Of a stretch of DNA of 33,651 nucleotides, positions 145-21,976 are shown piece by piece (the first letter of the stretch is position 1; the number at the start of each line of letters is the position of its first letter). Position numbers and translations under genes: made by a program. Where the stretch lies: positions 1 through 33,651 of the IMG/VR virus record IMGVR_UViG_3300010388_000103. One strand, written 5' to 3'. Under the pieces are notes generated by a model. The model saw nothing but the letters and a program-made list of their open reading frames with translations. It did no database searches and was not told the origin of the DNA. This DNA is from a virus.

Positions 145-2394
145 ATGGCATATCGGAAGAACGCAAAGCCTTCTAACGAAGAAGTTGACGACGCAATGGT
201 GCTGGACGACGGCATCGAGATTGACGTTGGCGCGTCTGACGAAGAGCCAATGACCGACGAGGAACTGGAGAGCATTATCTCCGGCGAGATCGACGACGCT
301 CAGGCCTACATTGACGACACCATCTCCCCGCTGAGGGCTGAGGCCGGTCAGTATTACAAAGGCGAGCCATTCGGTAACGAAGAGGAAGGCCGATCGTCTG
401 TCATCTCAATGGACGTGCGCGATACCGTGCAGGCCATCATGCCGTCGATCATGCGCGTCTTCTTTGGCTCCTCCAGTGTTGTTGAGTTTGCCCCGAACGG
501 TCCAGAGGACGTAGCGAACGCAGAGCAGGCGACGGATTATGTCAACTACTGCCTGACACGCGACAACAACCTGTTCTTCCATGCCTATGCCATGTTTAAA
601 GACGCTCTGGTCCGCAAGAACGGCTTCGGCAAAGTCTGGTGGGATGAGAAGGAAACCGTCAAGACCTACGAGATTGAGGGTCTGGACGAAAACGCCTATT
701 CCGTTCTGCTGTCTGACCCCACCGTTGAACTGCGTGAGGTTGAGGTAGAATACGGCGAAATGGAGGCAATGACGCCTGAAGGCATCGCCACCGTCATCCA
801 GATGCCGACGTACAGCGCAACGGTCGTCCGCAAGACGAAGGAGGGTCGCCTCAATATGCAGGCCCTTCCGCCCGAAGAGTTGCTGATCGACCGTCGCGCT
901 AAGTCCATGAACGACTTCGAGTTTATCGGCCACCGTCGCTACATGACCGTCTCCGAGCTTGTCCAGATGGGCTATGAGCAGGAAGAAGTTGAGCAGCTTG
1001 GCTACGAGACGCAGGACGACTTCGAAGGCAATCAGGAAGCGTTTGACCGCAACCCGCAGGCAACCATTCTTGGCGCTGGCCGCACTGATACCGCGTCGAA
1101 GAAGGTTCTCTACATTGAGGGCTATCTCTATGTTGACATGGACGGCGACGGCATTGCGGAACTTCGCAAGGTCTGCGTTGGTGGCAGCGCGTTCAAGCTC
1201 TTGCACCATGAAGCTGTAGACGACCATCCATTCTTCGACTTCTGCCCGGACCCTGAGCCGCACACATTCTTCGGTATGTCGATTGCCGACGTGGTTATGG
1301 ACATCCAGCGCATCAAGTCGTCGATCATGCGCAACACTCTGGACAGCCTTGCGCAGTCGATTTACCCGCGCATGGGTGTGGTTGAAGGACAGGCTTCGAT
1401 CGAAGATGTTCTAAACACTGAGGTTGGCGGCATCATTCGCATGAAGTCGCAGGGAGCCGTGCAGCCGTTCATCACACCGAACGTCTCGCAGGCCGCATTC
1501 CCGATGCTCCAGTACATGGATGAGGTGAAGGAAAGCCGCACCGGCATCAACAAGGCTTCGGCTGGCCTCGACGCAAATGCACTGAATGGCGCAACTGCAA
1601 CAGCCGTGAACGCGACTGTGACCGCAGCGCAACAGCATATCGACCTGATCTGCCGGATGTTTGCAGAGACTGGCTTCAAGACGCTGATGTCTAAGTCATT
1701 GAAATTGATGGTTAAAAATCAGGACAGGCCGCGCATGGTTCGCCTGCGTAATGAGTTTGTGCAGATCGATCCCCGCGTCTGGGATGCCGACATGGACGTG
1801 CTGGTCAACGTGGCTCTTGGCACTGGCTCTGACGACCAGAAGATGGGCTTCCTCAACGTGATTGCCCAGAAGCAGGAAATGATCCTCCAGCAGCTTGGCC
1901 CGATGAACAACCCGCTGGTCAGCCTTGAGGGCTACTACAACACGCTTGAGCAGATGCTGGCAATCGCTGGCTTCAAGGATGTGTCGCGCTTCTTTACCAA
2001 TCCGCAGGGCTTCCAGCCTCCCGCTCCTACGCCTCCTCCGCCAAGCCCGGAAGCAATTCTGGCGCAGGTGCAGGCACAGAGCATTCAGGCTGACATCCAG
2101 AAGAAGGCCGCAGAGCTTGAACTTCAGCGCGAAGATATGCTTCTGAAGGATGACCGCGAACGCGATAAGCTGGACGCAGAGGTGATGCTCAAGTCCGCTG
2201 AGATTGAAGCGAAGTATGGCTCGCAGGTAAACACGGCCAACATTCAGGCCCTGATGCAGCGTGACCGTGAGTTTCTCCGTCAGCAGGGCGAACTAGAACG
2301 CTCAGTCATTCAGGCATCACAGGCAGCACCAGCCGCACCGATGCCAGTTGAGATGCCGATGCCCGTTGAACTTCCGCCAGAAGGAATGATGTAA
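145..2394 (+). CDS. Portal protein (P22-like)
   Basis: The 749-residue product has the size and sequence character of P22-type portal proteins: an acidic N-terminus, then a segment around residues 70-115 (YYKGEPFG, VRDTVQAIMPSIMRVFF) shared by podovirus portals, a long mixed core, and a C-terminal Gln/Glu-rich coiled-coil-like barrel region (about 640-715) ending in a Pro/Met-rich tail. The portal forms the dodecameric ring at one vertex through which terminase pumps DNA and to which the adaptor docks. The ATG follows an AAGG ribosome-binding site. It sits just after the terminase genes once the contig is circularised and overlaps the next gene by one base (TAATG). The family assignment is by recognition, not search. 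Confidence 0.9.
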   Translation: MAYRKNAKPSNEEVDDAMVLDDGIEIDVGASDEEPMTDEELESIISGEIDDAQAYIDDTISPLRAEAGQYYKGEPFGNEEEGRSSVISMDVRDTVQAIMPSIMRVFFGSSSVVEFAPNGPEDVANAEQATDYVNYCLTRDNNLFFHAYAMFKDALVRKNGFGKVWWDEKETVKTYEIEGLDENAYSVLLSDPTVELREVEVEYGEMEAMTPEGIATVIQMPTYSATVVRKTKEGRLNMQALPPEELLIDRRAKSMNDFEFIGHRRYMTVSELVQMGYEQEEVEQLGYETQDDFEGNQEAFDRNPQATILGAGRTDTASKKVLYIEGYLYVDMDGDGIAELRKVCVGGSAFKLLHHEAVDDHPFFDFCPDPEPHTFFGMSIADVVMDIQRIKSSIMRNTLDSLAQSIYPRMGVVEGQASIEDVLNTEVGGIIRMKSQGAVQPFITPNVSQAAFPMLQYMDEVKESRTGINKASAGLDANALNGATATAVNATVTAAQQHIDLICRMFAETGFKTLMSKSLKLMVKNQDRPRMVRLRNEFVQIDPRVWDADMDVLVNVALGTGSDDQKMGFLNVIAQKQEMILQQLGPMNNPLVSLEGYYNTLEQMLAIAGFKDVSRFFTNPQGFQPPAPTPPPPSPEAILAQVQAQSIQADIQKKAAELELQREDMLLKDDRERDKLDAEVMLKSAEIEAKYGSQVNTANIQALMQRDREFLRQQGELERSVIQASQAAPAAPMPVEMPMPVELPPEGMM

Positions 2395-4394
2395 TGACGC
2401 TTGACGATTTGCGCGCAATGGGAGTTTCGGACGCTGACATTACTGGGCTTTTGTCATTTGACCCGTCATCCCTGACGATTGGCGGCGGGCAGGACGAAGC
2501 TGCGAGGGCTTTGGCGGCTGCACAGGCGACAGGTCTTTCCAATCTTGGTTATGTCCCAGTTTATGGCGGCGGGGATATTATTCCCGGAACTACGCAGGGC
2601 ATTCTCTCAAAACTTGGCATTGAAAACCCATACACTCCCATCTTCCAAACGGTTGGAAGCGAAAACTCCGGGACTGCGATGGACGCAACGGAGCGCACAA
2701 CTTTTGCGCCAACTCCGGGCCAGACATACCGCCTTGTGGACAATCGCACTGGCGAAACATTTGGTCAGGCAAGTGACCCTGTAGGGATTAAAGCACTTGT
2801 TGATCAGGCCAATGCCCTTTCTGAAGAGCAAGGCAAAAAGGCCAACTGGGACTTGCAGCAGTCAACGCTGTATTCTGCCGATCCCAATCAGCCGCTGAAG
2901 CAGGGCTGGAACACCATCGCGCAGGATGATCCGAATACCATTCCAATGAGCATCAAGGCGATGATGGCCGCTATGGCTGTGATGACGGGTGCGGGTGTAG
3001 CTCAGGGCCTGAGTACTGCTGGCACGGCGGCCACTGGTGCTGGCGCTGGTGCTGGCGCTGGTGCTGGGTCTGGCCTTGTTCCGGGCGCTCTCAGCGGACT
3101 TAGCTTTGCGCCTGTTGCGTCTGTTCCTGTCGCAGCTTCCGCAGTAGCTCCAATTGTTGTCACGGCAGGGGCTGGAGGGCTGACTGCTGCACAGTTGGCT
3201 GCACTTGCTGGCACCGCTGCGGCTGGAACTGCGGCTACGACAACGGGAGGCGCTGCGTCTGGCACAACCACAAGCGCGACAACTGCCCCAGCAGCAACCA
3301 CCACAGCAGCGGCAACAGGGTCCGAACTAGCTCCGATCACTGTGACGGCGGGTAGTAGTCCGACAAACCTCGTTCCAGCGTCATTGCTTGCTGGTGGCGG
3401 CGCTGCTGCTGCTGCGGCGGCTAACGCTGCTGGATCAACGACTAGCGCGGCAGATTTGGCCGCATCAAGGACTGGCATGACAGGAGCAGAGATGGCCGCA
3501 GTTAACGCAGGCGCAGGTGGCACCAACCTTCTGGATAAAATCATCTCCAACATGGGCATCTCGGATTATGCGACGTTGGCCTCTCTGGCAGCGAGCGCAG
3601 TCGGTGGCGGCGGCGGTGGCGGAACAGGCTCAACAACGCCTTACGTTTCGCCGTTTGGCGCTGGCACGAACTTTGGCGGCCTTGCATCGCGGACGCAGAT
3701 CAACCCGAACATCACAGACTATGAAAAGTATGGTTTTGGCCCAGAGGCTCAATTCTTCTCTGGCGGTCAGGGCGGCCTTGCAGGCACCGGAACTGGCACT
3801 GCAACGGCCACTAAAGATACGCCATACACTGGTGGCACATTGACGTTGCCTGAAGGCACGACGGCTGGCGTAACGCCTCCGACAACGCCAGTCACGACGA
3901 CAACCACTGCTCCTGCGACAACCTATCAGACGAACCTGAAAGACCCTGATATTTTCTCGTATATGAAGACGGTCAACGATAGCCTTGGCTCATTCTACAA
4001 GATGGGCCAGATGACCGATCAACAGGTGCGCGACTATCAGCAGAAGATGTACGACGCCATCAACACACCGGGCGCGACGATTGACACGTTCCGCAGTGCT
4101 GTTGCGATGCCGCAGTACACGATGTTTAACCAGCCGACCGGGACGCCGGTTGCAAACGTGCCAGCGCCGTTTGAATATACTGCGCCCGCACAGCCAATTC
4201 AAAATCTTTCAGCCTACATGAACGACCTCAACTCGCAGATCGGCTCAAGGGTTTCTCAGGGCCTGTTGAGCGCTGCAGATGCACAGAAAATTCAGGGCGA
4301 CCTGACGAACGTGTATCGCTCAGGAGGTGCAACAACGCAGGGCCTCCAAAGCGCATTTGATGCTGCATCGCAAAAGTATAAGCCGCTCATCTAA
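2394..4394 (+). CDS. Ala/Gly/Thr-rich phage structural protein of unknown function
   Basis: The 666-residue product is not recognised as a named family. Residues about 1-190 look globular. A hydrophobic segment (about 185-205, AMMAAMAVMTGAGVAQ) leads into a long low-complexity stretch rich in Ala, Gly and Thr (about 200-520), including a GAGAGAGAGSG run. The C-terminal 140 residues are again globular, with short helical-looking repeats. The start overlaps the portal stop (TAATG) and its own stop overlaps the next ATG in the same way, so translation is coupled. Position between portal and scaffold, plus the hydrophobic and disordered character, suggests a virion protein, perhaps one ejected with DNA. 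This is inference. Confidence 0.6.
   Translation: MTLDDLRAMGVSDADITGLLSFDPSSLTIGGGQDEAARALAAAQATGLSNLGYVPVYGGGDIIPGTTQGILSKLGIENPYTPIFQTVGSENSGTAMDATERTTFAPTPGQTYRLVDNRTGETFGQASDPVGIKALVDQANALSEEQGKKANWDLQQSTLYSADPNQPLKQGWNTIAQDDPNTIPMSIKAMMAAMAVMTGAGVAQGLSTAGTAATGAGAGAGAGAGSGLVPGALSGLSFAPVASVPVAASAVAPIVVTAGAGGLTAAQLAALAGTAAAGTAATTTGGAASGTTTSATTAPAATTTAAATGSELAPITVTAGSSPTNLVPASLLAGGGAAAAAAANAAGSTTSAADLAASRTGMTGAEMAAVNAGAGGTNLLDKIISNMGISDYATLASLAASAVGGGGGGGTGSTTPYVSPFGAGTNFGGLASRTQINPNITDYEKYGFGPEAQFFSGGQGGLAGTGTGTATATKDTPYTGGTLTLPEGTTAGVTPPTTPVTTTTTAPATTYQTNLKDPDIFSYMKTVNDSLGSFYKMGQMTDQQVRDYQQKMYDAINTPGATIDTFRSAVAMPQYTMFNQPTGTPVANVPAPFEYTAPAQPIQNLSAYMNDLNSQIGSRVSQGLLSAADAQKIQGDLTNVYRSGGATTQGLQSAFDAASQKYKPLI
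3036..3065 (+). repeat. 12-bp tandem repeat encoding Gly-Ala run
   Basis: Two and a half tandem copies of GGTGCTGGCGCT lie in frame inside the Ala/Gly/Thr-rich structural gene and encode alternating Gly-Ala. The surrounding coding sequence is low complexity as well. It probably arose by slippage and could vary in length between isolates. Confidence 0.7.
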
Positions 4395-7618: not shown

Positions 7619-8502
7619 TGGCTGATACTACGACCACAAACCTCGGCCTTACCAAACCCGAAGTTGGCGCGTCTGCCGACACTTGGGGCAATAAGCTCAA
7701 CACCGACCTTGACCTGCTCGACGCACTCTTTGCCGCTGACGGCACTGGTACATCTGTTGGCCTAAAGGTTGGTGCCGCGAAGACGCTTGCCGTTGCAGGT
7801 ACATTGAACGTCACTGGGTCATTGACTGGCGGCGTCGTTGCCCCGCTGGCCTCTCCGACGTTTACGGGTACTGTGGTTCTCCCATCGACCACCAGCATTG
7901 GTGGTGTCAGCGCAACGGAGCTTGTCTACCTCGACGGTGTGACATCCAATGTCCAGACGCAGCTTGACGCCAAGCTCGGCACTGCTGCCGCTGCATCGAC
8001 CTATGCGCCGCTTGTTAGCCCGACATTCACCGGCACTGTCGTTCTTCCATCCACGACCAGCATCGGTGGCGTCAGTGCTGCTGAGATCGTCTACCTTGAT
8101 GGCGTAACGTCGAACGTCCAGACCCAGCTTGATAACAAGGCCGGTCTTTCGTCGCCTGCATTCACCGGCACACCGACAGCGCCAACAGCCGCATCTGGCA
8201 CCAACACAACGCAGGTCGCCACGACAGCCTTCGTGCAGCAGACATCATTCGATAACTCTCTTCCGCTGCAATCAGGCAACGCTGGCAAGTACGTCACGAC
8301 TGACGGCACGAACGCAAGCTGGGCGACGATCCCTCCGCAAAGCTATCCGGGTGCTGGTGTTGCTATTTCGACTGGCACTGCTTGGGCCGCATCTGTTGCA
8401 CCGGGCGCATCTGGACAGGTGCTGACCAGCAACGGGACCAATTGGACCTCTGGCCCAGCACCAACCACGTCATACACCACACTTATGAAATTCGGTCTGT
8501 AA
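7618..8502 (+). CDS. Tail fibre protein with duplicated module
   Basis: The 294-residue protein begins with a signature of tail fibre/tail collar proteins ([20 protein letters not shown], about residues 8-27), which normally anchors a fibre to the virion. Residues 76-119 and 131-174 are 44-residue repeats differing at four positions, built of short beta-forming units ([18 protein letters not shown]). A third shorter [12 protein letters not shown] unit follows at about 179-190, then a TTAFVQQ motif common in fibre shafts. The C-terminus (about 215-294) is Ser/Thr/Gly-rich. It probably forms a trimeric fibre, with the AT-richer downstream proteins perhaps forming the tip. Confidence 0.85.
7843..7974 (+). 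repeat. Fibre module repeat, copy 1 (44 codons)
   Basis: This stretch encodes residues 76-119 of the tail fibre. It is a near copy of 8008-8139 at protein level (40 of 44 residues identical), while the DNA has diverged at many synonymous positions, pointing to an old duplication held by protein-level selection. Confidence 0.85.
8008..8139 (+). repeat. Fibre module repeat, copy 2 (44 codons)
   Basis: This stretch encodes residues 131-174 of the tail fibre and is the partner of 7843-7974. Copies are 165 bp apart start to start, with an 11-residue linker between the protein repeats. Confidence 0.85.
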
Positions 8503-8514
8503 GGAAGTTTTGAA

Positions 8515-9780
8515 ATGCCTGATACACTGAAGCAATTCTACAATGCGTCGATCAACGTCACTGGGTTGACGGGCAATCAGACTGCCACGTTGTTCACGAA
8601 CAACTCGACGACCCGCGCCGTCATCAAGGATGTGGATGTTGCGAATACGTTTCCTGTCACACCGAACCTGACGGTTGGTGGAACGGCGGTTGCATCATTG
8701 GGGTCAAACCTTACCGGCTCAGAGATTGTGGATGTCAGCCAAGCGGTCGCTATGTCGTTTGCTTCGCCTCTTGCGTTCACAATGACCCAGACAGTGAATT
8801 TGATTTCATCGGGAACACAGCGAGTTTCTACGTCATATAACATTAATGGACTTGTGAGTGGCGCTGCAACCGCAGATCAGGCCACACCTTCCTTAGACGC
8901 ATCCGCTTCCTATGTAACAGCGGTATATTATGCCCCCGATGGCGATGTATTTTCCGCACAGACTGATGGCAATTCATATTGGCTTTTGCGGAAAAATGCT
9001 GGCGGCGCAGGAGGCACGGCTTCAACGGTAAACTCAGGGTTTACTGGTTCATATTCTGCTATTGCATTCGATGGTATTAATACATTCTACTGGCTAACCA
9101 GCAGTACAAATTTGCGCGCATTTAATGCGGACACTGAAACTACGACAAATACAACCATTGCAACCGTCTCTGGCGGTGGCGGCGCTACTTATTCACGTCT
9201 TTTGTTTAGCAATGGATATTTGCTGTATAGCTACCAAGGAACTGCTTCTCCATACCTAATTGAAATTTCAACTGGGCGTTGGGCGTTCTTGAACGGTTTA
9301 GATATGTCTACAGTTGGCTGGAACGCCAGCCATGTCGTGCCCGGCTTTTGGTTTGATACATCTACACGGGTTGCTACCTTAATGTGGTTTTACCCCGGTA
9401 ATAATGATTATTATAGGGCTATCAGCCCAGCTGTTCCTGCCCTGACTGCTGCGTCGGTTACAATTTCAACTTCGTGGACAACATTGAATTTGGATTATAG
9501 CGCTTTTGTCGGCAGTGGGCAGCCATCGGTTAGCGCTGCACACATCGTTTTGTATAGCGCAGATGGCGGTGTTACAATTGACAGCGCCAACGCTTACGCC
9601 CGCGTACTTTCTGGAATTTCAGGCGCGACAAGTGGTTGGTCATTGGGCGCGGCTATTTCAAACATCGTTGTGACAATTTATCGCCCAAGGGTGACGTTCA
9701 CATCGTCTCCAACAGTGAACACCACAAACTTCCCAAGCACAATCTCCCTGCGCCTAACTGGCGTAGAAGTCACAGCGTAA
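8515..9780 (+). CDS. Putative receptor-binding/tail protein, AT-rich
   Basis: The 421-residue product is not a family I recognise. The first 110 residues contain beta-type sequence (NQTATLFTNNSTTRAVIKDVDV, then LTVGGTAVASLGSNLTG) resembling tail-associated beta domains. Residues about 120-300 look like repeated beta strands with aromatic ends, propeller-like. The C-terminus (about 330-421) is another beta domain. No signal peptide or membrane helix is seen. Codons from about 8800 onward are clearly more AT-ending than in the fibre gene before it, suggesting acquisition of a host-specificity module. A GGAAG ribosome-binding site precedes the ATG. Position after the fibre gene suggests virion attachment. 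Confidence 0.6.
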   Translation: MPDTLKQFYNASINVTGLTGNQTATLFTNNSTTRAVIKDVDVANTFPVTPNLTVGGTAVASLGSNLTGSEIVDVSQAVAMSFASPLAFTMTQTVNLISSGTQRVSTSYNINGLVSGAATADQATPSLDASASYVTAVYYAPDGDVFSAQTDGNSYWLLRKNAGGAGGTASTVNSGFTGSYSAIAFDGINTFYWLTSSTNLRAFNADTETTTNTTIATVSGGGGATYSRLLFSNGYLLYSYQGTASPYLIEISTGRWAFLNGLDMSTVGWNASHVVPGFWFDTSTRVATLMWFYPGNNDYYRAISPAVPALTAASVTISTSWTTLNLDYSAFVGSGQPSVSAAHIVLYSADGGVTIDSANAYARVLSGISGATSGWSLGAAISNIVVTIYRPRVTFTSSPTVNTTNFPSTISLRLTGVEVTA

Positions 9781-9790
9781 GGATTATATC

Positions 9791-10105
9791 ATGCTGATCA
9801 ATCCGACCCCGTCCGCGACCGCGATTGCAAACATAAACACACTTGTTAACCCAAGGCAGATTGCTGCTTATTCAAACACCTACGGGCAGGTAATGTATAC
9901 TGTCCCTGCCGGGAAAAAATTTGTAGGATATTTCACGGGAAATGGGGGTACTAATATTAATATAATTCCGCAAGTAGGTGTTGCTGTTGCAATGCCAACC
10001 CAAACTAACGCTCCTACTAATATAACGTTAGTAGCCGGGACTGTAGTTTCATATGCGTCATTTTCTAACGCTGGTTATCTTCTTGGCGTAGAGAGCGACC
10101 TATAA
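9791..10105 (+). CDS. Small beta-rich tail-associated protein, AT-rich
   Basis: The 104-residue product has a YTVPAGKKFVGYFTGN motif, a type seen in small jelly-roll domains at phage fibre tips or accessory capsid/tail proteins. I cannot assign a family. Like the gene before it, it is noticeably AT-rich (for example around 9951-9970) and may have been acquired together with it. It ends one base before the tail chaperone gene, an arrangement seen for fibre tip genes and their chaperones. Confidence 0.6.
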   Translation: MLINPTPSATAIANINTLVNPRQIAAYSNTYGQVMYTVPAGKKFVGYFTGNGGTNINIIPQVGVAVAMPTQTNAPTNITLVAGTVVSYASFSNAGYLLGVESDL

Positions 10106-10106
10106 G

Positions 10107-10508
10107 ATGGCTCAGATCAATGTAGCTGACGACCTCACCGTCCATGTTCTCACCGACGACAGTGCGTTTGAGTTTTTCCTGCCCAGCTATGACCCTGAAA
10201 GCATGGCCGCATTTGCGAATGCTGGTCAGGCGTATGCTTGTGCAGAGCGGTACGTCGAGCTTGGCAATGTCTGGCAACCCTACAAATCGCCAGAAGAGCG
10301 CGAACAGGAGCGCAACGCAGGGATCATCGCTGGCAACAAGCCAATCCGCAACGCCAAGCTGGCCGAATGCGACTGGACGCAGATCGGTGACGTGAACCTG
10401 ACCGCCGACTGCAAGGCCGCGTTCGCCGCATACCGCCAAGCCCTGCGTGACGCTGATATGCTCAACCCAGTATGGCCGGACGCTCCTGCTGAAGAGTGGG
10501 TTGCCTAA
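10107..10508 (+). CDS. Phage tail assembly chaperone (PF16778-like)
   Basis: The 133-residue product has a C-terminal half with the pattern IRNAKLAECDWTQIGDV ... AAFAAYRQALRD ... VWPDAPAEEW, which I recognise as typical of the phage tail assembly chaperone family found next to tail fibre genes. The N-terminal half is an acidic globular domain of unknown detail. Such proteins assist folding or attachment of fibres and are not necessarily in the virion. It directly follows the putative receptor-binding genes and precedes the lysis cassette by two bases, matching the common order in many phages. Confidence 0.8.
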   Translation: MAQINVADDLTVHVLTDDSAFEFFLPSYDPESMAAFANAGQAYACAERYVELGNVWQPYKSPEEREQERNAGIIAGNKPIRNAKLAECDWTQIGDVNLTADCKAAFAAYRQALRDADMLNPVWPDAPAEEWVA

Positions 10509-12500: not shown

Positions 12501-13496
12501 GTGCCAGCATCGACATTCACAGACGAAGAGTTTATAACAGCATGGGAGCGTGGCAAGGGCAGCCCTATCAAGGTTGCAGCCATCCTCGGCATCAAGGAGC
12601 GTGGCGTCTATTCCCGTCGTGAACGACTGGCGCAGCGCGGGATCATCCTCAAGAGCGTCCCGTCAGATGGTAAGCCGACCAAGTGGGCCTCTGACGACGC
12701 TGGCCGCGCATACAAGCGACAGATCGACCTCAGTATCGACACAGGCACCGTTATTGCGTTCTCTGACGCGCACTGGTGGCCCGATCAGGTGCGGACGACG
12801 GCCAATGAGGCTCTGCTGCTGCTGATTGAGGATTTGAAGCCTCGCACAGTGTTTGCCAATGGCGACTTGTTCGATGGCGCACGGGTCAGCCGTCACGCGC
12901 CTCTTGGCTGGGCTGAGTTGCCCACCGTGAAGGAGGAGTTGGAAGCCTGCCAAGACCGACTGGATGAGATTGAACAGCGTCTCCCCAAGGGTTGTGTCAA
13001 GATTTGGAACGTCGGCAACCATGATGCCCGCTTTGACCGGGCGCTATGCGTCAACGCATCGGAATATGATGGCGTGGTGCAGCGGCTTGAAGACAAGTTT
13101 GACCGCTGGAACTTCACATGGTCAACGATGATTAACGAAAACGTGATGGTCAAGCACCGCTATCACAACGGCATTCACGCCACCTACAATAACACCCTCA
13201 AATCTGGCCGCTCAATCGTCACTGGACACCTTCACCGGCTCGCCGTGACACCTTGGGCCGATTACAACGGACGGCGCTATGGCGTCGATACAGGGACGCT
13301 CTCCAATCCGCATGGCCCGCAGTTTGATTACGCAGAGAACAACCCGTCTCCTCATACGTCCGGCTTCGCCGTTCTGACGTTCAAGGATGGGCTGCTGCTG
13401 CCGCCTGAGTTGTGCGAAGTCATCAATGACAAGGCATATTTCAGGGGTGAATGTGTTTTCGACGGAGGGGCTGACGATGACAATTTCGGCAATTGA
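12501..13496 (+). CDS. Calcineurin-like metallophosphoesterase with N-terminal HTH-like domain
   Basis: The GTG at 12501 follows a GGGAG ribosome-binding site. The 331-residue protein has an N-terminal segment (about 5-48, DEEFITAWERGKGSP...VAAILGIKERGVYSRRERL) resembling a helix-turn-helix. The metallophosphoesterase motifs follow in order: D89-x-H91 (FSDAH), GDLFDG (121-126), GNHD (172-175) and GHLH (242-245). These bind two metal ions and hydrolyse phosphomono- or diesters. The substrate is unknown; DNA or nucleotides are possible given the DNA-binding-like N-terminus. It sits among late genes, after lysis and before tail genes. Its last 20 bases overlap the start of the HNH gene. Confidence 0.88.
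   Translation: MPASTFTDEEFITAWERGKGSPIKVAAILGIKERGVYSRRERLAQRGIILKSVPSDGKPTKWASDDAGRAYKRQIDLSIDTGTVIAFSDAHWWPDQVRTTANEALLLLIEDLKPRTVFANGDLFDGARVSRHAPLGWAELPTVKEELEACQDRLDEIEQRLPKGCVKIWNVGNHDARFDRALCVNASEYDGVVQRLEDKFDRWNFTWSTMINENVMVKHRYHNGIHATYNNTLKSGRSIVTGHLHRLAVTPWADYNGRRYGVDTGTLSNPHGPQFDYAENNPSPHTSGFAVLTFKDGLLLPPELCEVINDKAYFRGECVFDGGADDDNFGN
13477..13496 (+). repeat. Flanking near-repeat at HNH insertion, left copy
   Basis: ATGACAATTTCGGCAATTGA matches 14001-14020 at 18 of 20 positions. This copy contains the HNH start codon and also the stop codon (TGA) of the metallophosphoesterase in another frame. Confidence 0.85.
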
Positions 13497-14004
13497 GTAT
13501 TTGCGCCAGCGGCTCGCATATGAACCAGAAACTGGCATTTTAACTTGGCGACATTGCGATGCCATGCCTGCGTGCTGGAATGCACGCTTTGCTAATAAAG
13601 AGGCTTTTACGGCAAATAGCGGTAATGGCTATCGTGTTGGTAAGATAGACAATTGGCCATATAACGCACATCGCGTTGCTTTTGCCATTTATCATGGGCG
13701 ATGGCCAAATTATATGGTTGACCATATTAATGGTGATGGGACTGATAATCGCATCAGCAATCTTCGTGAGGCAACGCACTCGCAAAATCAGCATAATCGA
13801 AAAAAGAGCAAAAACAATACATCTGGCTACAAGGGTGTATCTCGCAACAATCGCGGCTGGCTTGCTCAAATTATGCTCAATGGCAAGACCCGCTGTCTCG
13901 GCACATATTCAACGCCAGAGGATGCAGCAACGGCCTACAATACCGCTGCAAAAACTATGCACGGTGAGTTTGCAAATTCACAAAGCGTGGGTGATTTAAA
14001 ATGA
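13477..14004 (+). CDS. HNH homing endonuclease with AP2-like DNA-binding domain
   Basis: The ATG at 13477 lies inside the end of the metallophosphoesterase gene. The 175-residue product has an HNH_3-type core (AHRVAFAIYHGRWPN, then VDHINGDGTDNRISNLREAT, about residues 64-107) and a C-terminal AP2/ERF-like domain (GYKGVSRNNRGW ... CLGTYSTPEDAATAYNTAA, about 120-165) for DNA recognition. Such freestanding nucleases cut intron-less alleles and spread by repair. The gene is more AT-rich than its neighbours. Its first eight residues, MTISAIEY, almost repeat those of the next gene (MTISAIEF), and the DNA of both starts is nearly identical, marking the insertion site. Confidence 0.9.
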   Translation: MTISAIEYLRQRLAYEPETGILTWRHCDAMPACWNARFANKEAFTANSGNGYRVGKIDNWPYNAHRVAFAIYHGRWPNYMVDHINGDGTDNRISNLREATHSQNQHNRKKSKNNTSGYKGVSRNNRGWLAQIMLNGKTRCLGTYSTPEDAATAYNTAAKTMHGEFANSQSVGDLK

Positions 14005-14020
14005 CAATTTCAGCAATCGA
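14001..14020 (+). repeat. Flanking near-repeat at HNH insertion, right copy
   Basis: ATGACAATTTCAGCAATCGA matches 13477-13496 at 18 of 20 positions. It contains the start codon of the DUF6378-like gene, so each copy now serves a different gene. Confidence 0.85.
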
Positions 14021-14330
14021 ATTCTTGGAACGAGCCGCTGATCTGATGCTCGAACGCGGGCAGGAATACGATACGCCAGAAGGTGAGCGCAGCATGGCCC
14101 GGACGGTTGCAGCGTTCAATGTGCTGACCGGAAACATCTTGAGCGAGCAGGACGGCTGGCTGTTTATGCTGCTCTTGAAACTTGCGCGCCAGCAGCAGTC
14201 GGACACTTGGCATCAAGACAGTTCTGAGGATGCAATCGCCTACGCTGCCCTGATGGCAGAAGCGTGGCAAAACGCAGACAATGATGATATAGAGGTGGTG
14301 TTTACTTTCAGCACTGACGATGAAGAGTAG
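14001..14330 (+). CDS. DUF6378-like phage protein
   Basis: The 109-residue product shows the DUF6378 pattern: an N-terminal LERGQEYDTPEGERSMARTV stretch, a central LFMLLLKLARQQQSD segment, and a DAIAYAALMAEAW helix near the C-terminus, followed by an acidic tail. This is a small helical family common in phages; its arrangement recalls MazG-like nucleotide pyrophosphatases, but no function is established. It overlaps the HNH stop by four bases (ATGA). Before the HNH insertion it probably overlapped the metallophosphoesterase gene. Confidence 0.75.
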   Translation: MTISAIEFLERAADLMLERGQEYDTPEGERSMARTVAAFNVLTGNILSEQDGWLFMLLLKLARQQQSDTWHQDSSEDAIAYAALMAEAWQNADNDDIEVVFTFSTDDEE

Positions 14331-18192: not shown

Positions 18193-19365
18193 ATGGCACC
18201 TCCGTCGTTTATGTCCTCAAGGGCTGTCCAAGGTTATTCTCCTCAGTTCCTTAACACTGGCACTGAGGCTCCCGCCCCCGTGGCTGGCGCACAGTCTCCC
18301 GATCTGACCAACCGCCTGTTGCAGATCATGGGCGGCAATCTTGCTGGCACATTGTCTGGCGGTGAGAAGCTGTCAGCCCTTGGCGCTCTCCTCAAGTCAG
18401 TCAGCCGTGGCAGCCAGAGTAGCCCGCAGCAGGTTCTACAGAGCATCCAGCAGCAGAAGTTGCAGGAAACGCAGGGTGCTTTGCAAATTCAGGAGCTTCG
18501 GAAGCAGGCTGGTCAACAGGCCCAGCGTAATGCTTTGCGTGAGGATTTGCTGTCAAAGGCTCGCAACGATGGAGAGCGCGCTCGAATTAGGCTTTTGAGC
18601 GACGAAAACCTTGAAAAGTATGCGTTGCAAGGTCTTGAAAACAAGCCGCCAGAAATGGAAGCGAAGCAAAAGCAGCTTGCAACGTATTTCCAAATGAGGA
18701 TGGAAGACCCAGCACGAGCAAGCGCGTATTGGCGTTTAATTAATCCAACACAAATTGTTGGCTCCATTGAAAGCGGCATTAAAGAATATAACGTTCCAGA
18801 GCCTCCGATGGAAAATGGCGCTGTTGGCGCTCCTTCTCGTGGTGGCATTTCTGACCTTACTCCGCCACAGCCAAAGCCAGTCGTCCCGACTGAAAGCGAG
18901 AATACCGCTGGGTATCTGTATACGCGATTGCAGGATAGCATCGGCAGTTTGAATAGCATTCTTAAGAGTGATCCCGCCGCTGCCAGCCCATCTGCCTCTG
19001 AAATTGTTACAGAAAAGGTTTTGGGTGAGGACATTGCAAACAAGTTTAAATCTCCAGCGCGGCAGCAGTTCATTGCTTCCCAAAGAGATGCTCTTGCTGT
19101 GTCCCTGACCCTTGTTACTGGTGCTGCATACAACGAGCAGCAGTTGAACGACGAATATAGAGCATACTTCCCACAATATGGCGATGACCCGTCAACAAAG
19201 GCATTTAAACAAAAGAAATGGGAAAATCTTTTGAATGCTGCAAGGATCAAGGCTGGTCGGTCATTGCAGGGCCAGACTGGCGGAAATGCTGGCGCACCAA
19301 AACCATCTAGCGGCAAGGCTCCAGCGCCAAAGATTAAAATTCTAAGCGTCAAGCCAAGGGGCTAA
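18193..19365 (+). CDS. Putative internal virion protein
   Basis: The 390-residue product has a Pro/Ser-rich N-terminus (about 1-45), a Gln-rich helical region (about 75-120), a charged helical centre and a C-terminal basic tail. No domain is recognised. The 3' two-thirds of the gene use more AT-ending codons than its neighbours, a mild sign of separate history. It sits between two other ejection-type genes and shares their spacing (2 bp on each side). A structural or ejected role is inferred. Confidence 0.6.
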   Translation: MAPPSFMSSRAVQGYSPQFLNTGTEAPAPVAGAQSPDLTNRLLQIMGGNLAGTLSGGEKLSALGALLKSVSRGSQSSPQQVLQSIQQQKLQETQGALQIQELRKQAGQQAQRNALREDLLSKARNDGERARIRLLSDENLEKYALQGLENKPPEMEAKQKQLATYFQMRMEDPARASAYWRLINPTQIVGSIESGIKEYNVPEPPMENGAVGAPSRGGISDLTPPQPKPVVPTESENTAGYLYTRLQDSIGSLNSILKSDPAAASPSASEIVTEKVLGEDIANKFKSPARQQFIASQRDALAVSLTLVTGAAYNEQQLNDEYRAYFPQYGDDPSTKAFKQKKWENLLNAARIKAGRSLQGQTGGNAGAPKPSSGKAPAPKIKILSVKPRG

Positions 19366-19367
19366 AC

Positions 19368-21392
19368 ATGGCAGAAATGAAGGTATTTGACCTTACGTTC
19401 CAAGACGAGAGCGGCAAGGTCTATGACGCGCAGATTGAGGCTCCGGCTGACGCTTCTGAAGCCGATCTACAGGCTGCTGCGGCTCAATATCTTGCATCCG
19501 CTCGCCCACAGACCGCATTCCCTCCTGCTGTCGTTAAGAGTGCCGCCCCCATTCCAATCCCCAGTGAGGCAGAGGCTGCAACGCAGATCGCCCAAACTGA
19601 GGCGCGGACTGCTGCTCGCAAAAAGGCAATGGACGAGCGTGGTATTCTTCAGGCGTTTGGCGAGGGGTTTATGGCTCCGCGTCAGGAAGACCCATTTGGG
19701 CTTCAGGGTGATTTTACCATTGGTGAACGTGTGGGCCTCGCACCGCTGACTGCGTTGAATTATCTTCGTGAAGGTGTGCAGAGTGTCGGCTCTGGATTGG
19801 CGGAAGCCGGTGGTCAGGCAATCTACAACCTTGGCCTTGGTCAAGGATATTCTCCGCAGCGCATTGGTGCAGAGCTTGGTGAGTTTGCTCAAGTTGGTGG
19901 CATGGCGCTTCCAAACGCTCCGCTGCGTACTCAGGCTGCGACCACTGAGTTTATGCTGCCATCTGTTCGTCAGGCTATGCGGTCTGTCCAGCAAGCGGCG
20001 ATAAACGTCCCCAACCTTGATCGGCTGACCCCAGCCCAGCGCGTTCTCGCAGCCGCAGAGCGTCAGAGGGTGCCTCTTATGCCCGCTGATGTTGGCGGTT
20101 CTGGTGTTCAGGGCTTGACCTCCGGCACGGCTCAGTCAGTGGTTGGGCGTGGGCCTGTCACACGCGCATCGGAAGCCACCACTGAAGCCTTACAACTCGC
20201 AGCGCAGCGGGCTGCTGACGAAACTGGTAAAGTAAAAAGTCCATTAGAAATTGGCTTGAGTTTGAAAGATGCGGCGACAGCATTTGCTACTACGACATCT
20301 AGGCGTGGTGGAGAGCTTTATGACCGCGTTCAAAAGGCTGCGGAGGGCCTTGTGTTCCGCCCATTGAATGCAGCCAAGACCATTGACCGCGAGATTGATC
20401 GGCTGCGTAAGAAGAATGACCCGTCAGACCCGCTTCTGCGTTATCTGGAAAGCAAGCGCGAACAGCTTAGCACGCCTCAAGGCTTTGATTATGAAGGCGC
20501 AAAGCAAATTCTCAGCGACCTGAAGGCGGATCACCGCGTCAAGGATGATCTGTTGCGCGTGACAAATGCCAAATCAACTCTCGGTCGGGTTGCCCGCGCA
20601 ATGGAGGATGATGTCACCGGCACAATGATTAAAAACGATCGGGAAGGCGCTGCGAACGCTTTCAAGACTGCCAATGCGTATTGGCGGCAGCGTGTTGAAA
20701 CGCTTGATGATGCCTTGGAGCCAGTCCTCGGAACAAACGCAACGCCAGACCTTATTCTCGATAGCATTAATGCTATGGCTGGTGGCCGCAAGGGTGGCGT
20801 CCAGCGACTTGTGCGCGTCATTAATTCTCTTCCAGAGGCTGATCGCGGCAGTATTCGGGCAACGATTGTTGACCGTCTTGGCCGTGCAAAACCGGGCGCT
20901 CAAGATGCTGGCGGTGAAGTTTTCTCTCCCGCAGAATTTATGACCAACTGGAATAAAATGTCTAATGAGGCAAAGGCAGCCTTATTTGGACGCGATAGGA
21001 AACTGTCTCAGGCTCTTGACGACATTGCACTTTTGGCTGGTAGCACGAAGCAGGCGCAACGGTTTGTTAACCAGTCACAGACCGCTGGTGCCGTTCAAGT
21101 GAACAATCTTTATAACATCATGGCTGGCGCTGGGATGCTTGGTGGCGGTGCTGCGGCAACCGCTGGCAACTTCGGTGTCGCTCTGACCTCGGTAGTTCTT
21201 CCGCTTGTTCTGACGCGCCTGAGCGCGAATGCACTAACATCGCAGCGCCTTGTCCGCTATCTCGCAGACGCTCCGAAAAAGGTTAAAAACGCAGACCAGT
21301 TCCGCGCTGGCTTGCTTGACATCGCATCCAAGGTTCCGGCAGTCTCTGCTGAATTGGAAGCCATCGCCGCAGAAATGGGTGGTCCACAATGA
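19368..21392 (+). CDS. Large internal/ejection virion protein
   Basis: The 674-residue product begins with a ubiquitin-like beta segment (KVFDLTFQDESGKVYDAQIE, about 5-24, followed by an ADASEADLQAAAAQYL helix), a module seen at the start of large internal virion proteins of podoviruses. Long helical regions follow, including LRYLESKREQL and YWRQRVETLDDALEP. There is a hydrophobic Gly/Ala segment (about 580-620, AGAGMLGGGAAATAGNFGVA), probably membrane-inserting. Together with the transglycosylase encoded next, it would build the periplasmic ejection conduit. The stop overlaps the next gene's ATG (ATGA). Confidence 0.7.
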   Translation: MAEMKVFDLTFQDESGKVYDAQIEAPADASEADLQAAAAQYLASARPQTAFPPAVVKSAAPIPIPSEAEAATQIAQTEARTAARKKAMDERGILQAFGEGFMAPRQEDPFGLQGDFTIGERVGLAPLTALNYLREGVQSVGSGLAEAGGQAIYNLGLGQGYSPQRIGAELGEFAQVGGMALPNAPLRTQAATTEFMLPSVRQAMRSVQQAAINVPNLDRLTPAQRVLAAAERQRVPLMPADVGGSGVQGLTSGTAQSVVGRGPVTRASEATTEALQLAAQRAADETGKVKSPLEIGLSLKDAATAFATTTSRRGGELYDRVQKAAEGLVFRPLNAAKTIDREIDRLRKKNDPSDPLLRYLESKREQLSTPQGFDYEGAKQILSDLKADHRVKDDLLRVTNAKSTLGRVARAMEDDVTGTMIKNDREGAANAFKTANAYWRQRVETLDDALEPVLGTNATPDLILDSINAMAGGRKGGVQRLVRVINSLPEADRGSIRATIVDRLGRAKPGAQDAGGEVFSPAEFMTNWNKMSNEAKAALFGRDRKLSQALDDIALLAGSTKQAQRFVNQSQTAGAVQVNNLYNIMAGAGMLGGGAAATAGNFGVALTSVVLPLVLTRLSANALTSQRLVRYLADAPKKVKNADQFRAGLLDIASKVPAVSAELEAIAAEMGGPQ

Positions 21393-21976
21393 ACAAGAAG
21401 CTGGTAAACTTTGCGTTGCAAGAGGCGGATCGTCAGGGCGTCCCCCGCGACTATATCAATGCCATCATCCAGATTGAAAGCAGTGGCGGGATTAACGTAG
21501 GGCCTTCAAGTGCTGGTGCGCGTGGCCCAATGCAGTTGATGCCCGACACGGCCAAGGGCCTTGGGGTGGACATCGACGACCCTATGGACAACATCCGTGG
21601 CGGGGTGCGGTACTACAAGCAGCAACTCAAGAAGTTTGGCGACCCTGTGATTGCGGCAGCCGCATACAACGCAGGTCCGGGCAACGTCCGAAAGTATGGC
21701 GGCATCCCGCCTTTTGCTGAAACGCGAGACTATGCGAAGAAGTTTCGCAACTTCATTGGGGCTGCGGAGGCTACAACGCCATCGGCTGCGCGCTCTAAGC
21801 CCGGACAGATGCTGGCGATGAAGTTGGATGATCCGACACCTTACACGCCAAGCCCAATCGACCTAGAGGCTGAAACCGAAAGCAACTTCGCCTCCCTGCT
21901 CTCCAAGATCGGCGCTGGCAAAAAGAAGCGTTCGACCAAGCGTAAGATGCCCGGTATTCTGGATGGATTGATCTAA
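21389..21976 (+). CDS. Soluble lytic transglycosylase (virion-associated)
   Basis: The 195-residue product has an SLT/GH23 domain: catalytic Glu in QIESSGG (E30), GPMQLMPDTA (46-55), a NIRGGVRYYKQQL helix (68-80) and AAYNAGPGNV (91-100). GH23 enzymes cleave peptidoglycan with 1,6-anhydro product formation. Here it most likely acts in the virion to open the cell wall locally during DNA ejection, since a separate endolysin exists. The C-terminal 80 residues are low-complexity, ending in a basic stretch (GAGKKKRSTKRKM). The gene overlaps the large internal protein gene by four bases. Confidence 0.92.
   Translation: MNKKLVNFALQEADRQGVPRDYINAIIQIESSGGINVGPSSAGARGPMQLMPDTAKGLGVDIDDPMDNIRGGVRYYKQQLKKFGDPVIAAAAYNAGPGNVRKYGGIPPFAETRDYAKKFRNFIGAAEATTPSAARSKPGQMLAMKLDDPTPYTPSPIDLEAETESNFASLLSKIGAGKKKRSTKRKMPGILDGLI

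Follow-up and report, generated by a model that had tools for sequence, protein, structure and literature searches.

How an HNH endonuclease gene could enter between two overlapping phage genes and leave both of them whole is the question raised by a 33,651-base virus record (the whole stretch analyzed here, below called the window) that also encodes portal, scaffold, and terminase genes.

The HNH locus and its repeated start

Three intact genes on the plus strand make up the locus. The first encodes a metallophosphoesterase (MPE; ORF at 12501 to 13496; Pfam PF00149, 9.3e-5; PHROG 221, metallo-phosphoesterase). The second, at 13477 to 14004, encodes a freestanding HNH-AP2 endonuclease of 175 amino acids (Pfam HNH_3, 1.7e-17, and AP2, 4.7e-5, supported by alignment to homologues), and the third, at 14001 to 14330, encodes a DUF6378 protein (Pfam PF19905, 8e-9). 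The 109-amino-acid DUF6378 protein also matches PHROGs named phosphofructokinase (phrog_474 and phrog_1167), a name that is doubtful. The HNH insert is a single ORF whose ends overlap both neighbors, its stop codon (TGA, 14002 to 14004) sitting within the ATGA of the DUF6378 start. The gene lies outside any intron or intein, and its neighbors are whole. Its HNH_3 nuclease domain (PF13392, 1.7e-17; residues 63 to 105, positions 13663 to 13791) retains the catalytic DH...N motif as DHINGD..DNRISNLR in the alignment to phage HNH homologues. A putative AP2-like DNA-binding domain follows at residues 116 to 163 (positions 13822 to 13965), with a PF00847 score of 24 bits, under the curated cutoff of 33.3, and PDB sequence matches to plant AP2/ERF proteins. 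The ORF caller offers an alternative HNH start at an upstream ATG at 13387; we prefer 13477 because a Shine-Dalgarno-like GGAGGGG (13464 to 13470) precedes it and because homology to HNH relatives begins there.

The HNH and DUF6378 genes begin almost alike. The left copy, ATGACAATTTCGGCAATTGA, occupies positions 13477 to 13496, and the right copy, ATGACAATTTCAGCAATCGA, positions 14001 to 14020. As an earlier note on this DNA had stated, 18 of the 20 bases are identical (MTISAIEY versus MTISAIEF, read directly from the sequence), and the left copy also holds the final codons and stop codon of the MPE gene (TGA at 13494 to 13496). After the start codon the two genes share 15 of 17 bases, against a maximum of 11 of 17 and a mean of 4.5 for all other pairings among the window's ORF starts (3,741 pairs from 87 starts), and none of 4,000 cross-paired HNH and next-gene starts reached the window's score in a start-anchored comparison. 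Chance similarity is rejected on these counts. That the HNH protein natively has an N terminus resembling that of DUF6378 might be argued from a short helix, xxLxxLLxYxPxTG, which HNH relatives share near their start and which slightly resembles EFLERAAD. HNH homologues in other phages begin otherwise in the alignment, however, their conserved part starting at the helix before Y-x-P-x-T-G and none having a native MTISAIEY start, as the earlier note had required, and the empty site carries a single copy of the sequence. Coincidence, of either kind, is thus very improbable indeed.

The empty site is seen in HNH-less relatives, where, as had been predicted, the MPE and DUF6378 genes overlap by about 20 bp at one copy of the sequence. 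This holds for 27 of 29 listed IMG/VR junctions, some of whose contigs are near-duplicates of one another. The MPE stop codon in these relatives is made of the last base of DUF6378 codon 6 (ATT) and the following two bases. The nearest of them, G001 (IMGVR_UViG_3300047297_000103), is about 93 to 94% identical to the window on both sides of the junction and encodes an identical DUF6378 protein, and both window copies match its single junction segment. The HNH gene is therefore present in the window and absent from the same site in close relatives, all 29 listed junctions being empty. Away from the junction, the window at 2394 to 4394, about 8400 to 10300, and 18500 to 21850 is without G001 matches while the flanks are about 90% identical; these regions hold variable genes. 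Searches of viral contigs with the window HNH sequence returned only relatives of 40 to 44% identity and no second insertion at an MPE/DUF6378 junction, and phage records searched for the MPE/DUF6378 pair yielded distant relatives only.

Native left copy and divergent right copy

Comparison with the empty site separates the two copies. The left copy matches G001 at 22 of 22 bases (13477 to 13498), and most of the adjacent upstream sequence is identical as well; homology stops after it. It is the native DUF6378 start, now serving as HNH codons 1 to 7. The GGAGGGG site now upstream of HNH is likewise native to DUF6378 in HNH-less relatives, where it stands at the same spacing from the DUF6378 start (G001 and L082). 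A native fragment consisting of ribosome site, ATG, and seven codons stays on the left, still ends the MPE gene, and is fused in frame to HNH, which sets HNH up for translation from the initiation region of the target gene.

Behind HNH stands a complete DUF6378 gene, of which the first 10 or so codons are silently divergent and the remainder native. Relative to G001, the right copy (14001 to 14030) carries six silent third-position differences, in codons 4, 6, 7, 8, 9, and 10, with the protein unchanged. Three of 21 bases differ from both the native start and the left copy, and the divergence reaches nucleotide 30. With G001 as the reference, silent changes affect six of nine codons (codons 2 to 10) compared with 16 of the 99 remaining DUF6378 codons (p=0.002). 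One of them makes codon 6 of the right copy ATC, which would destroy an overlapping MPE stop. Relatives whose MPE stop depends on codon 6 all have ATT there; the exceptions, ATA in L101 and ATC in L049, occur in genomes where MPE ends earlier. When further DUF6378 genes having ATC as codon 6 were sought with a DNA pattern, L049 alone, with its earlier MPE end, was returned. Since ATC at codon 6 is incompatible with the MPE overlap, the right copy must have evolved free of that overlap, and it probably arrived with HNH or was rewritten later. The stretch from the point where left-copy homology stops to that where native sequence resumes (14022 to 14031, DUF6378 nucleotides 22 to 31) is the putative site of the break.

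The earlier note had offered two mechanisms, in-frame recruitment of a start codon and target-site duplication. The first is upheld; the second, in its plain form, does not fit a native left copy paired with a diverged right one, and the identical short direct repeats of a transposon-type duplication are not found here, the copies being nonidentical. A clean duplication might still be imagined in which fill-in on either side of HNH repaired a staggered break of about 22 nucleotides, followed by silent drift of the right copy under protein constraint. The repeat is indeed short, it directly flanks the insert, and its left copy is exactly native, yet silent changes are some four times denser in the right copy than in the rest of DUF6378, and known HNH homing endonucleases nick DNA or produce short overhangs. 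We regard such a duplication as quite unlikely. The account that we favor, and hold to be reasonably probable, is that a freestanding HNH-AP2 homing cassette hijacks the translation start of its target and restores the target with a divergent 5' end.

Related architectures in other phages

The earlier note had held such an arrangement to be rarely seen so clearly for a freestanding homing endonuclease. It is not confined to the window, as shown by a survey of about 180 to 190 nonidentical HNH-AP2 loci gathered across IMG/VR, the genomes of bacteria, and phage records. The same architecture occurs in several unrelated phages, including cultured Escherichia coli phages. When the HNH N terminus was compared, start anchored, with that of the next gene in about 180 loci, a score of at least 30 was reached at five loci (the window, L285, L383, L391, and L233) against 0.4 expected from 8,000 cross-pairs. 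The HNH and next-gene proteins begin with MPVLKNPRHD and MGVLKNPRHE in L285, with MSKTHWKA and MTSRTHWKS in L383, and with MPILSNSRHE and MPILSNHRWE in L391; HNH-less relatives sought for L383 were all distant. L233 is not counted as a start capture, since its two tandem genes (about 2360 to 3600) both encode HNH enzymes of one family. Weaker start sharing is seen in L384 (MANPL) and L238 (MTTKI). At the start-sharing loci, the common residues are mostly encoded by different codons.

A DNA comparison of both flanks at 189 loci gave a score of at least 13 in six, with 0.38 expected. Among them L233 and L131 were set aside as other things, and the test adds phage G7C, Pantoea phage PdC23, and L170/L351. 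In L131 (Sinorhizobium phage AP-16-3) an identical 15-bp repeat encoding ANDN lies at the HNH and next-gene starts (1478 to 1492 and 2035 to 2049), and it may be a lineage motif and not a start capture; the HNH C terminus also holds AANDNR. L205, L316, L345, and similar loci were at chance level and are likewise set aside. In PdC23 and L170/L351 the repeat is of another sort, comprising the upstream gene's tail plus a ribosome site. The PdC23 repeat (L488; 1464 to 1519 and 1999 to 2037) encodes the tail YR[QV]IENDG, and the upstream gene's original tail seems to have become the HNH C terminus there. That of L170/L351 (2287 to 2319 and 2872 to 2905) is a 33-bp repeat (27 of 33 identical) on both sides of HNH, silently different, with the tail KYQEPLRRVR*. 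In most of the 180 to 190 loci, a captured start was not detected, and start capture is therefore either a minority mode or one whose traces decay fast.

Cultured phages provide a second case with empty sites. In the N4-like E. coli phages G7C and ECBP1, the interruption of gene 42 (exonuclease) lies some 22 codons from its start. Before HNH there remains, as a mini-ORF, the native 22-codon fragment, in G7C matching phage IME11 at 59 of 60 nucleotides, and a full gene 42 stands behind HNH. Within codons 2 to 20 of this full copy, 13 to 14 of the 19 codons are changed relative to four HNH-less relatives (p of about 2e-6 to 4e-10, compared with p>0.2 in six control comparisons), and the sequence is native again immediately at the insertion point. 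In the divergent G7C start one serine codon has gone from TCA to AGT and four of 21 codons have residue replacements, changes absent from the compared HNH-less relatives. Simple silent drift would not readily turn TCA into AGT, and together with the four replacements this change favors import of an older, divergent donor allele, counting further against a target-site duplication followed by drift.

Of the 15 phage records found to contain the 66-bp divergent gene 42 start, 13 are annotated with an overlapping HNH or homing endonuclease. A strict linkage of this start to HNH is rejected, as two HNH-free Gamaleyavirus genomes, NAN33P5 (L500) and K57alpha1.2 (L501), carry a 95.5% identical allele. 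Their gene 42 start (1001 to 1066) is chimeric, the first 11 bases being of the native type and the rest of the divergent type. It is possible that HNH was lost when the two copies recombined and that this start is the scar, or else that a resistant allele was transferred, perhaps in part. In the K57alpha1.2 record (OY979416) an antisense "portal protein" is annotated across the gene 42 exonuclease (1 to 1415) and appears misplaced. The gene 42/primase junction of two other phages, Moo19 (L482; 1504 to 2019) and U1G (L498; 2175 to 2612), has HNH genes whose start coincides exactly with the native ATGA overlap; the native ATGAGTA is retained in Moo19, a minimal form of start capture.

The third case concerns the portal gene of L384. 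Its upstream 1.5 kb differs from the HNH-less L443 by one mismatch up to the portal start codon, and its HNH opens with MANPL, a start identical at the DNA level to that of the portal gene in L473. Behind HNH, 41 silent and 3 replacement changes relative to L443 fall within portal codons 1 to 72, and beyond codon 72 the rate drops to about 2 per 12 codons. The HNH-less portal relatives, compared among themselves, show no strong 5' excess of changes. Since the divergent tract spans 72 codons and the captured fragment 5, a rule by which the divergent tract equals the captured or displaced fragment is rejected.

These two cases bear on another explanation for the divergent copies, namely, that the duplication came first and that selection then favored silent recoding of the right copy in place. 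Identical repeats would let recombination delete HNH, and an intact target would be cut, so that selection for local recoding is conceivable on either ground. In the window and in G7C the changes are limited to about the duplicated stretch, and the HNH-free chimeric alleles resemble what repeat-mediated loss would leave. The multistep serine codon change of G7C, on the other hand, suggests an old, separate lineage, and the 41 silent changes over 216 bp in L384 go beyond what escape from one site would need. Selection in place is, on balance, unlikely. No donor phage carrying the window's right-copy alleles was found.

Possible route of entry and known homing systems

If the divergent 5' end was indeed brought in with HNH, the following series of events may be proposed. 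In an HNH-free phage the HNH enzyme would cleave the target gene, still uninterrupted, at its 5' end. To the right of the break, repair would proceed by homology from a donor genome carrying HNH and its own target-gene 5' end, and the left side would be joined directly or via short homology, giving the order native 5' fragment, HNH, divergent 5' end, and native remainder. For the window, this places the insertion of the HNH-AP2 cassette at some 22 to 30 nucleotides into DUF6378. A native fragment left in frame would give HNH a ready initiation region, as it may in the window, L384, L285, L391, L383, and L238; one left out of frame would persist as a mini-ORF, as in G7C. The cassette would in this way rescue the very gene into which it inserts. 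The divergent 5' end may in addition shield the cassette's copy from the enzyme and keep recombination between the repeats from readily removing it. The order of the parts is read directly from the sequences, whereas we infer the cutting, the donor step, and this resistance. Where the enzyme cuts may also show in the divergent segment, at about nucleotides 22 to 31 of DUF6378 and about codon 21 of G7C gene 42. ATGA overlaps are the usual setting for translational re-initiation, and DUF6378, which starts at such an overlap, would be placed for it.

Freestanding endonucleases, intronless homing, co-conversion, and overlap with an upstream ORF are established, and 5 of the 12 freestanding homing enzymes of phage T4 overlap the upstream ORF (PMC2988022). 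The T4 seg and mob genes are alike in being freestanding nuclease genes beside a likely target, with neighbor overlaps and co-conversion of flanks, but neither a captured N terminus of the next gene nor a divergent restored 5' end is described in the available part of that source, and the T4 cut sites it gives are hundreds or thousands of base pairs away, whereas here the break would fall within the duplicated start (PMC2988022). T4 mobA, with its 50-nucleotide bypass insert in gene 60, and Aeh1 mobE in nrdA likewise place an HNH gene in an essential gene, and the insert accompanying mobA is thought to protect against the enzyme (PMC5009743, PMC2988022). Those genes are split or are rescued by ribosomal bypassing, whereas here the gene is kept whole by a second 5' copy. 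I-TevII in sunY is an ORF flanked by target-like halves, read as capture at a break (Loizos et al. 1994 in PMC3984707), but it lies within a group I intron and not at a gene start, and the target does not regain a coding copy. Lactococcal phages, too, have genes for I-HmuI-like HNH enzymes in many positions, some showing marker exclusion, but duplicated or captured gene starts are not reported for them, the terms "overlap" and "duplicat" being absent from the text (PMC12724721). In the open-licence literature, no account came to light that combines a captured target start with a divergent restored 5' end. Given the known features of freestanding homing, the arrangement is therefore best regarded as a variant of it and not as a separate category.

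A broader reading, which we put forward tentatively and hold somewhat short of even, is that these loci are recurrent phage HNH home-and-rescue elements, in which the mobile unit would be the nuclease plus a silently divergent, cleavage-resistant target 5' end, with the nuclease expressed from the captured start. Loss by repeat recombination would then leave HNH-free resistant alleles, perhaps those of NAN33P5 and K57alpha1.2. These cases address the open question of how a selfish nuclease enters a packed phage genome without killing resident genes, and they offer a concrete answer: such a nuclease may seize the start of its target gene and bring a divergent replacement copy, which can be checked in cultured E. 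coli phages. If true, this would be a natural counterpart to engineered home-and-rescue gene drives.
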